Source: Patulibacter minatonensis DSM 18081
GTDB taxonomy: Bacteria; Actinomycetota; Thermoleophilia; Solirubrobacterales; Solirubrobacteraceae
Direction of reading: 5' to 3'
Assembly (NCBI RefSeq): GCF_000519325.1
Contig: NZ_KI912613.1
Coordinates: forward strand, 4,596,469 to 4,660,468
Length of the DNA stretch: 64,000 bases
The notes beneath the pieces were generated by a model. It made no database searches, was not told the DNA's origin, and saw only the letters and a list, made by a program, of their open reading frames with translations. This document shows, piece after piece, positions 18,431 to 21,469 of this stretch. Every line of letters starts with the position of its first letter. Position 1 is the first letter of the stretch. A program made the position numbers and the translations under genes.

Positions 18431-18832
18431 TCACGCCTCCGCGCCCCACTGCCCGACGCGGCACACGGCCTCGATGTTCGCGCCGTCCGGGTCGAGCACG
18501 AACGCCGCGTAGGGCGCGTGCGGGCGCGGACCCGGCGCCCCGTTGTCGACCCCGCCGGCGGCGATCGCGGCGGCGTGGAACGCGTCGACGGCCTCCGTCG
18601 ACTCCGCCACGAACGCCACGTGGGCGCCGGCGGTGACCGGCCCGTCGGCGCTGAGCGCGAGGTTGCCGAACGCGAGCAGGCCGTGCGCGTCGAGCAGGAA
18701 CGCCACGCCGAGCGGCTCCAGCGCCCGCCGGTAGAACGCCCGCGACCGGTCGAGGTCGGCGACGCGGAGGTGGACGTGGTCGATCGACGGGCGCGTCCAG
18801 TCGTGGGTGCGGGGGTCCGTGAGCTCCAGCAT
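18431..18832 (-). CDS. VOC-superfamily (glyoxalase/dioxygenase-like) protein
   Basis: A single betaalphabetabetabeta module pair of 133 residues: SIDHVHLRVADLDRSRAFYRRALEPLGV and YAAFVLDPDGANIEAVCR are the two VOC half-motifs. Likely metal ligands are H19 or H21 and E121. Its substrate is unknown. ATG 18832 is 7 nt from a TATAAC hexamer. That hexamer overlaps the -10 of the divergent CGNR regulator, which suggests the regulator controls this enzyme. Confidence 0.85.
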   Translation of the reverse strand: MLELTDPRTHDWTRPSIDHVHLRVADLDRSRAFYRRALEPLGVAFLLDAHGLLAFGNLALSADGPVTAGAHVAFVAESTEAVDAFHAAAIAAGGVDNGAPGPRPHAPYAAFVLDPDGANIEAVCRVGQWGAEA

Positions 18833-18853
18833 GCAACCGGTTATACTGGTGTC
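18833..18853. promoter_or_regulatory. 21-bp divergent promoter with two overlapping -10 boxes
   Basis: Plus-strand TATACT (18842-18847) lies 6 nt before the CGNR GTG at 18854. Minus-strand TATAAC (18845-18840) lies 7 nt before the VOC ATG at 18832. The hexamers share the four bases TATA. Both mRNAs would be leaderless, and both promoters cannot be opened at once. The surrounding ACCGGT-TAT-ACTGGT is an imperfect palindrome that could also be an operator. Confidence 0.6.
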
Positions 18854-19468
18854 GTGTCCGAGGGTCAACCGCACGCCCCCGATCCGCGGGTGCTCCGCCG
18901 CGAGGACCTCGGCGCCGACGACGCCCGCCGGTTCCGCACGGGCGCCGACTGCCTGGACCTCACGCACACCGGGGCGGAGGGCCGCTACGCCGTGTTCGAG
19001 CTGCTGCACGCGCCCGAGGACGTCGGGCGCTGGCTGGGGCTCCTCGTCCGGACGCCCGTGGCTGCCCGGGACGAGGACGTCGCTGAGGTGCGCGGGGTGC
19101 GCAACGCGATCGGACGGGTGGCCCGGGCGATCGCCGCGGGCGACGCGCCCGCCGCCGCCGACGTCGCGCGGGTCAACGCGGCGGCCGCGGGGGCGCCGAT
19201 GGTCGAGGAGCTCGTGCGCCCCGGGGTGGCCCATCGCCCGCCGACGACCGCCGGGCGAGCGCTCGCGTCCCTGGCCCGCGAAGCCGTGGAGCTGTTCGGC
19301 GGGCCGCTCGCCGACGGCCGGATCCGCGTCTGCGGGGCGGAGGACTGCGGCCTCCTGTTCGTGGACCGGTCGCGGCCGGGACGCCGGAGGTGGTGCTCGA
19401 TGGAGCGCTGCGGCAACCGCGCGAAGACGCGCGGCTACCGGGCCCGGGGCGGGGCGAGGGGGGACTGA
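18854..19468 (+). CDS. CGNR zinc-finger/ABATE-domain transcriptional regulator
   Basis: The N-terminal ABATE domain (GADCLDLTHTGAEGRYAVFELL, then LRG-like segment EVRGVRNAIGRVARAIAAGD) is followed by the C-terminal CGNR zinc finger VCGAEDCGLLFVDRSRPGRRRWCSMERCGNRAKTRGYR. All four Cys ligands and the CGNR signature are present. The family binds DNA through this finger and senses small molecules. The start is GTG 18854. It is divergent from a VOC enzyme with only 21 bp between starts, so it probably controls that gene and itself. Confidence 0.92.
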   Translation: MSEGQPHAPDPRVLRREDLGADDARRFRTGADCLDLTHTGAEGRYAVFELLHAPEDVGRWLGLLVRTPVAARDEDVAEVRGVRNAIGRVARAIAAGDAPAAADVARVNAAAAGAPMVEELVRPGVAHRPPTTAGRALASLAREAVELFGGPLADGRIRVCGAEDCGLLFVDRSRPGRRRWCSMERCGNRAKTRGYRARGGARGD

Positions 19469-19505: not shown

Positions 19506-20513
19506 TCAGGCGGCGACCTCGTCGGGCTTGACGAGGGCCTGCGCGAAGTCGTCGGGATCGAACGGGCGGAGGTCCTCGAGGGCCTCGCCGATGCCGATGA
19601 GCTTCACGGGGATGCCGAGGTCCTGGGCGATCGCGATCGCGATGCCGCCCTTGGCGCTGCCGTCGAGCTTCGTCAGGACGATGCCGGAGACCGGCGCGAC
19701 CTTCGAGAACTCGGCGGCCTGGCGCAGGCCGTTCTGGCCGGTGGTCGCGTCGACGGTCAGGAGGATCTCGTGCGGGGCGCCCGGCATCAGCTTCTCGACG
19801 ACGCGGCGGACCTTCGAGAGCTCCTCCATCAGCGGCAGCTGCGTGTGGAGGCGCCCGGCGGTGTCGACGATCACGACGTCGGCGCCGGACTCGCGGCCGC
19901 GGCGGACGGCCTCGTAGGCGACCGACGCGGGGTCGGTGCCCTGCTTGCCGGTGACGACCTCGACGCCCGCGCGCTCGCCCCAGATCTGGAGCTGCTCGAC
20001 CGCGGCGGCACGGAACGTGTCGGCGGCGCCGAGGACGACCTTCTGGCCGAGCTCGAGCGTCAGCGTGTTGGCGAGCTTGCCGATCGACGTCGTCTTGCCG
20101 GTGCCGTTGATGCCGCACACCATCACGACGGTCGGACCGTGCCGGAGGTCGATCGTGGCGTCCTCCTTCGGGCGCGCGGCCTCCGCCAGCAGCTCGGCCA
20201 GGCGGTTCTGCAGCGCCTGCGGGTCGGTCAGCCCGCCGGTCGTGGCCTCGGTCTCCAGGCGGCCGACGATCTCCGCCGTGGCCTTCGCGCCGCAGTCGGC
20301 CATGATCAGCGCCTCCTCGAGGCGCTCCCAGGTCTCCTCGTCCAGCGTGTCGAAGAGCGTCTGCGTCAGCTCGGCGCCGAGCGCCTCGCGCGTCTTCTTC
20401 ATGTTCTGGCGTAGGCGCTTGAAGAAGCGGCCGCGCTTCTCGGGCTCCGGCGCCGGCAGCGCCGCAGCGCGGGTCTCGTCCAGGACGAAGAGGTCGGTCC
20501 ACTCGCGCGCCAT
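19506..20513 (-). CDS. ftsY: Signal recognition particle receptor FtsY
   Basis: The SRP receptor GTPase. The N domain follows a short basic linker (KRGRFFKRLRQNMKKTREALG), so the long acidic A domain of E. coli FtsY is absent. The G motifs are GINGTGKT at 134-141, DTAGRLHTQ and TKLDGSAKGGIA, with the closing GEALEDLRPFDPDDFAQALV. I choose ATG 20513 (MAREWTD) over the start nine codons upstream because TATCGT lies 8 nt before it, and GGAGG is also present. It is divergent from the epimerase gene. Confidence 0.95.
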   Translation of the reverse strand: MAREWTDLFVLDETRAAALPAPEPEKRGRFFKRLRQNMKKTREALGAELTQTLFDTLDEETWERLEEALIMADCGAKATAEIVGRLETEATTGGLTDPQALQNRLAELLAEAARPKEDATIDLRHGPTVVMVCGINGTGKTTSIGKLANTLTLELGQKVVLGAADTFRAAAVEQLQIWGERAGVEVVTGKQGTDPASVAYEAVRRGRESGADVVIVDTAGRLHTQLPLMEELSKVRRVVEKLMPGAPHEILLTVDATTGQNGLRQAAEFSKVAPVSGIVLTKLDGSAKGGIAIAIAQDLGIPVKLIGIGEALEDLRPFDPDDFAQALVKPDEVAA

Positions 20514-20569
20514 CCCCTCCGACGATACCGGGGGCGGCAAGGCGTCCGGCTCGGGGTACCCTGCCGCCG

Positions 20570-21469
20570 ATGCGCGCCGTCGTCACCGGAGCCGCCGGGT
20601 TCGTCGGCACCCACCTCGTCGCCGCCCTGCGGGAGCGCGGCTGGGACGTCGTGGGCACCGACCGCCGCCCGGGCGCCGACCACCGCGCCGACCTCGTGGA
20701 CGCGGACCTCGACCCGCTCGTCGGCGGCGCCGACGTCGTCCTCCACCTCGCCGGCCGGGCGTCGGCGCGGGCCAGCTGGCGCGAGGACTTCGACGGCTAC
20801 CTGCACGACAACGTCCGGGCGACCCAGCGGCTGCTGCACGCCTGCCACGCCGCGCGGGTGGGTCGCGTGGTGCTGGCGTCGTCGTCCTCGGTCTACGGCG
20901 GCGCAGCACCGCTGCCGACGCCGGAGGACGCGCCGACCGCCCCGGTCTCGCCCTACGGCGCGACGAAGGTGATGGCGGAAGGGCTCGCCGCCGCCTACGG
21001 CGCGCAGGGGCTCGACGTCGTCGTCCTGCGGTACTTCACGGTCTACGGGCCGGGCCAGCGGCCGGACATGCTGCTCGCCCGCGCGATCGACGCGGCGCTC
21101 CACGGCGACGAGCTGCTCGTCTTCGGCGACGGGCGACAGACCCGGGACTTCACGTTCGTCGGCGACGCGGTCGAAGCGACGATCGCGGCCGGCACGCGCG
21201 GGCCCGCCGGGCGCACGTACAACGTGGGCGGCGGGGCGCCGGTCGCCGTGCGCGACGTGCTCGGGCGCGTCGCGGCGCTGTGCGGCGGGACGCTCACGAC
21301 GGCCGGGGCGGCCGCGCACGCCGCCGACGTCCGCGACACCGCCGCCGACGTCTCGCGGGCCCGGGGGGCGCTCGGGTTCGTCGCCCGGACGACCCTCGAC
21401 GACGGCCTGGCCGCACAGGTGGCGGCACGCCGGGCCGCGCTCGCCGCCCCGTCCGCGGACCGGCGCTGA
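20570..21469 (+). CDS. NAD-dependent sugar-nucleotide epimerase (GalE-like SDR)
   Basis: An extended SDR with all motifs intact: TGAAGFVG at 6-13, SSSSVYG near 104-110 and catalytic Y129/K133 in SPYGATK. The LRYFTVYGPGQRPDM and FTFVGDAVEA blocks are typical of UDP-glucose or UDP-glucuronate epimerases. It probably supplies an activated sugar to the adjacent glycosyltransferases. The start is ATG 20570 with TACCCT exactly 7 nt upstream, suggesting a leaderless mRNA. It converges on the glycosyltransferase gene ending at 21493. Confidence 0.9.
   Translation: MRAVVTGAAGFVGTHLVAALRERGWDVVGTDRRPGADHRADLVDADLDPLVGGADVVLHLAGRASARASWREDFDGYLHDNVRATQRLLHACHAARVGRVVLASSSSVYGGAAPLPTPEDAPTAPVSPYGATKVMAEGLAAAYGAQGLDVVVLRYFTVYGPGQRPDMLLARAIDAALHGDELLVFGDGRQTRDFTFVGDAVEATIAAGTRGPAGRTYNVGGGAPVAVRDVLGRVAALCGGTLTTAGAAAHAADVRDTAADVSRARGALGFVARTTLDDGLAAQVAARRAALAAPSADRR

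Follow-up and report, generated by a model that had tools for sequence, protein, structure and literature searches.

Bidirectional promoters are already known, and so is a divergent regulator/target pair with leaderless transcripts. In the account given by Warman, Grainger and colleagues (PMC12825309), promoters whose two directions share a −10 element give rise to 19% of the RNAs detected in E. coli, and divergent start sites commonly lie 10, 18 or 23 bp apart. It was therefore an overstatement when a preliminary description of the region treated here called it one of the most compact arrangements imaginable. Proteins that combine an ABATE domain with a zf-CGNR zinc finger (CGNR proteins) form a widespread family, present in 68 of 198 genomes sampled across the phylum, yet the papers found offer no more than one structure and a conjecture about regulation. 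The structure is that of Jann_2411, a likely dimer whose zinc finger is proposed to bind DNA in a ligand-dependent manner (PMC2954205). Among the matches listed for the open literature, which is what the search covered, no report describes an operator for a CGNR protein.

The present locus is a 21-bp gap between divergent VOC and CGNR genes of Patulibacter minatonensis DSM 18081. It lies in what we call the window, the whole stretch of 64,000 nt that was analysed (NZ_KI912613.1; G+C ~75%); the genome, a single contig of 5.52 Mb, is coded G000 in comparisons. Judging from the sequence comparisons below, the gap is probably the operator of an autoregulatory CGNR protein, and would hold both that protein's own leaderless promoter and the VOC promoter, with the two genes repressed, and released, together.

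The gap, its promoters and its flanking genes

The features of the region are as follows.

18833 to 18853, no strand: divergent intergenic region of 21 bp, GCAACCGGTTATACTGGTGTC, read directly
18434 to 18832, minus strand: VOC/glyoxalase-superfamily protein of 133 aa, start ATG 18832 (PF00903, E=1e-11)
18854 to 19468, plus strand: putative transcription regulator of 204 aa, ABATE + zf-CGNR (PF07336, E=1.4e-19; PF11706, E=1.4e-20)
18842 to 18847, plus strand: predicted CGNR −10 box, TATACT, leaderless, 6 nt upstream of GTG 18854
18840 to 18845, minus strand: predicted VOC −10 box, TATAAC, 7 nt upstream of ATG 18832, lacking T6
18842 to 18845, no strand: TATA common to both −10 boxes, read directly
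18863 to 18868, minus strand: −35-like TTGACC belonging to the VOC −10 box, spacer 17, a 5/6 match to TTGACA, within CGNR codons
18836 to 18850, no strand: putative CGNR operator ACCGGT-TAT-ACTGGT, spanning both −10 boxes, arms 5/6 complementary

The spacing of the start codons, the sharing of TATA by two boxes placed 6 and 7 nt from them, and the imperfect palindrome had all been pointed out in the preliminary description, and direct reading confirmed each of them; the Pfam matches likewise bear out the two flanking genes that it named. TATACT and TATAAC overlap on opposite strands, the arrangement by which bidirectional promoters are recognized, and the predicted distance between the divergent start sites, taken from the start codons, is 21-22 bp. 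The overlap itself is a matter of arithmetic, since two leaderless genes separated by about 24 bp or less are forced geometrically to overlap their −10 boxes.

Are leaderless promoters to be expected in this genome? In 464 kb, made up of the window and 20 further stretches, we called genes from codon use and start-codon type, leaving promoters out of account, and counted TANNNT in front of the 374 genes with upstream sequence. The pattern peaks close to the start codon, at 6 nt in 32 genes, 7 nt in 21 and 8 nt in 9, against a background of 1.08 per position at 30-54 nt upstream; permuted control patterns never exceed 6 per position between 0 and 29 nt upstream. Leaderless −10 elements are thus common here (TANNNT at 6-7 nt in 53 of 374 genes), and TATACT, 6 nt before GTG 18854, fits this signature and falls within the range of 6-8 nt. 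The leaderless geometry of the preliminary description is supported by this peak; the VOC box TATAAC departs from the TANNNT pattern in lacking the final T. The −35-like TTGACC, which had gone unmentioned, would compensate for this weak −10 element. The combination finds support as a promoter in one of the relatives discussed below, G394, whose CGNR gene is preceded by TTGACC-16-TATAAC-7-ATG.

The same sample contains 62 divergent pairs. By the called starts, six of them are separated by no more than 60 bp, among them the VOC/CGNR pair, which enters at 57 bp because the caller used a start at 18890. Four of the 62 have TANNNT in front of both genes; their gaps range from 56 to 210 bp, and their −10 boxes do not overlap. 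Besides the VOC/CGNR pair, the window holds a divergent pair at 20513-20570, with a 56-bp gap and TANNNT 8 and 7 nt before the two called starts; its genes are an FtsY-like SRP GTPase (minus strand) and, by eye, a sugar epimerase-like protein (plus strand).

The VOC start, ATG 18832, agrees with that of the G394 relative, which is near the aligned position. VOC orthologs are 58-70% identical. No NCBIfam model scored above its cut-off for the VOC protein, with fosfomycin-type matches far below, and so no specific function is assigned to it. Both domain matches of the CGNR protein exceed the curated cut-offs, and its cysteines C160, C165, C181 and C186 are invariant in the five orthologs, consistent with the zinc-ligand pattern of a treble clef. 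A phmmer search found no PDB chain matching the protein at E≤0.001. Its start is a choice between two GTG codons. The codon-based caller took 18890, and the CGNR relative in G394 begins near the position aligned with it; we prefer 18854, because TATACT lies 6 nt before it and because TATACTGGTGTCGTG recurs at the start of another CGNR gene, L173. The genome has a second CGNR gene (L002, G000:C1:1883210-1883731), with TACCAT in a leaderless-like position 7 nt before a GTG.

The pair and its palindrome in relatives

Of the 146 family genomes searched, five have a VOC ortholog at E≤1e-40, and in each of the five a CGNR gene lies divergent from it. Within the genus the ortholog is limited to the own genome (one of eight; none in the other seven), so that the pair is absent from close relatives. 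Among 399 genomes sampled from the class, six VOC orthologs score above 190 bits, five of them with a divergent CGNR gene. The sixth, in G365 (L117, G365:C19), lacks one, which shows that the coupling is not strict; the start of the CGNR gene that G365 carries at another place (L172) has AATACTGGTGTTGTG. The VOC profile matched two of 396 genomes in the phylum sample, the own genome and L147, and in a search of genome contigs, where 80 of 539 loci were retained, an HMM scan found no divergent CGNR gene beside any of these VOC relatives. The two kinds of gene can also be linked in one orientation: in G016 a CGNR match is followed by two VOC-like matches on the same strand (G016:C806:456-1650). 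At L173 the upstream same-strand gene ends VOC-like by eye; the HMM scan gave no VOC match there.

The five pairs, whose CGNR proteins are 39-53% identical to the window protein, compare as follows (genome; gap; palindrome; bases shared by the −10 boxes).

G000: 21 bp; ACCGGT-TAT-ACTGGT; TATA
G394: 52 bp; ACCGGT-ATA-ACTGGT; none
G028: 35 bp; ATGGGT-CAT-ACCCAT; none
G219: 27 bp; ATGGGT-TAT-ACCCAT; TA (ACGCTATCAT)
G017: 27 bp; ATGGGT-ATA-AGCCAT; TA (ACTGTATCAT)

What is conserved here is the palindrome, and not the overlap. The preliminary description had named poor conservation of the TATA overlap in close relatives as a finding that would refute it; among these relatives, which are not close, the four bases are shared in one pair of five, TA in two and nothing in two. 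This check goes against the switch that the description had proposed, and we reject a conserved TATA overlap. In the remaining four genomes TANNNT precedes the VOC start by 6-7 nt, and for G219 and G017 a 7-bp rule predicts a start-site distance of 23 bp.

A 6-3-6 palindrome, by contrast with the overlap, is present in the gap of all five pairs, in two sequence types. Within the window alone it would carry little weight: 3.8% of 5000 dinucleotide shuffles of the gap contain a palindrome as good, as do 23 of 367 other 21-bp pre-start stretches of the own genome, and we discarded the notion that it is significant on its own. The second-type site, ATGGSTNNNASCCAT, occurs once each in G028, G219 and G017, always in the VOC/CGNR gap, and nowhere in G000 or G394. 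The first-type site, ACCRGTNNNACYGGT, is not unique, with five places in G000 against three for the reversed control, and three in G394 against one. Similar sites are found at CGNR genes with no detected VOC neighbour: ACCAGT-TAT-ACTGGT in G060 (L004/L174), CACTTATACTGGTGTCGTG in G194, CACTTATACTGGTTACATG in G320 and GTACCGGT-TAT-ACCGGTAC in G231. The suggestion that the palindrome is a CGNR site covering both promoters thus gains support, from the five pairs and from the CGNR genes that stand apart from a VOC gene.

A half-site at the starts of CGNR genes

Is the site a property of the pair, or of the CGNR family? From 59 CGNR loci of the class we retained 51 after removing duplicates, in which one gene had been retrieved twice and the C-terminal stretches were identical, and compared their start regions with 251 control stretches from the same loci. 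GTAACC is the most enriched 6-mer, in 24 of 51 start regions against 3 of 251 controls (p=2.4e-18, a value that takes no account of kinship among the loci), and TAACCNGT is found in 18 of 51 against none of 251. Other gene starts of the own genome give the same picture (5 of 367 for GTAACC, none of 367 for TAACCNGT), as do shuffled CGNR start regions, with means of 2.5 and 0.5. A second set of 29 loci, sampled from the phylum, was fetched after the motif had been fixed, and all 29 were counted. GTAACC was again the top 6-mer (11 of 29 against 3 of 107 controls), and TAACCNGT was found in 10 of 29 against none of 107. Most start regions in both sets, 33 of 51 and 19 of 29, lack TAACCNGT. The half-sites of the window, CAACCGGT and ACTGGTG, are variants of it; since the window reads CAACCGGT and not GTAACC, its site does not count toward the enriched 6-mer. 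Forty short upstream stretches were inspected by eye only, and many have GTAACC-like halves, though several were misread by the scan or are incomplete.

One subgroup of CGNR proteins, with an N-terminus around WYWLGGRPALD, has GTAACC together with GGTTATG-like halves, and often an ATG start inside the right arm with TANNNT 6 nt before it (loci L009, L012, L014-L018, L179-L183, L185 and L187-L191).

The type of site appears to go with the type of protein. In eight of the 51 loci the final CG of the zinc finger is followed by Asp (CGD), and of these six have CATG-type sites, one an AACC-type site and one neither. Of the 37 with Asn there (CGN), 29 have AACC-type sites only, one CATG-type only, one both and six neither. 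The classes were defined after the sequences had been seen, and the six CGD loci with CATG-type sites resemble one related group, so that this match is a lead and not a test.

For the family as a whole, it seems reasonably likely that the ABATE/zf-CGNR proteins of the Actinomycetota are autoregulators. Their sites would be built from a new half-site, GTAACCNGT, and a sister, CATGGGT, in the CGDR subgroup, usually placed on the gene's own leaderless or near-leaderless promoter. The window would then be the most compressed form, with two opposed −10 boxes.

Regulation of the pair and known systems

How might so small a gap serve two genes? We propose that it is a compressed autoregulatory divergon. 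The palindrome at 18836-18850 would be the operator, presumably bound by a CGNR dimer; both dimer and binding are what Jann_2411 and the conserved palindromes lead us to expect. The leaderless promoter TATACT would be built into the centre of the operator, an arrangement found at several CGNR genes with no VOC neighbour, and the VOC promoter, TTGACC-17-TATAAC, would use this self-complementary TATA from the other strand. With CGNR protein bound, both −10 boxes would be covered and both genes repressed, and a ligand, perhaps a compound handled by the VOC protein, would release them. One operator over both boxes predicts co-repression and joint release, rather than anticorrelated expression or a toggle.

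Among the alternatives, the CGNR protein might activate the weak VOC promoter while repressing its own. The missing T6 of the VOC −10 box is in keeping with this, and activation would be possible in G394, where the same site sits on the CGNR −10 box and, for the VOC promoter, toward the −35 side. In the window, however, the operator sits on the VOC −10 box itself, an unusual position for an activator, and we regard activation as unlikely.

The preliminary description had seen a built-in switch. Taken as a rival, this means that polymerase engaged in one direction shuts out polymerase in the opposite direction, so that expression would be anticorrelated with no regulator involved. Since four bases are shared, simultaneous opening of both boxes should be sterically impossible, and at E. 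coli bidirectional promoters strong activation in one direction can repress the other. In vitro data published for five such promoters, however, show basal activity too low for competition, which appeared once one direction was strongly activated (PMC12825309). Moreover, the full TATA overlap is confined to one pair of five, and a shared operator would in any case cover both boxes. A self-acting switch thus seems quite improbable and is not supported. The last alternative, that the palindrome is a by-product, its symmetry a matter of chance where two −10 boxes use one TATA within GC-rich sequence, with CGNR binding elsewhere, can draw on the shuffles and pre-start stretches that equal it, but is very improbable given its presence in all five pairs at 39-53% CGNR identity, the similar sites at CGNR genes lacking a VOC neighbour, and the family-wide enrichment of the half-site. 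The comparison of relatives suggests, then, a binding site for a regulator, little studied so far, that acts on its own gene and on the adjacent one, and not an on/off switch that acts by itself. If so, the predicted operator makes CGNR regulation a testable problem of protein-DNA recognition and offers a route to target genes, and the window provides a predicted natural minimal bidirectional promoter outside E. coli.

Against the known systems the locus stands as follows. It resembles the E. coli bidirectional promoters in that divergent RNAs arise, here by prediction, from −10 elements that overlap on the two strands, and some of those promoters likewise lie between regulator and target, as at acrR/acrA and soxR/soxS (PMC12825309). 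It differs from them in that both transcripts are predicted to be leaderless, which places the start codons at the predicted start sites, and in the putative operator on the shared box; the start-site distance predicted here is 21-22 bp, against the common values of 10, 18 and 23 bp there. With prpD (Rv1130)/Rv1129c of M. tuberculosis it shares a divergent regulator and target, leaderless transcripts having been mapped there and being predicted here; the genes are different (PMC3898074). With Jann_2411 it shares the two-domain architecture of ABATE and zf-CGNR; in the account given in PMC2954205, Jann_2411 is a structure alone, without a reported operator, target or ligand.
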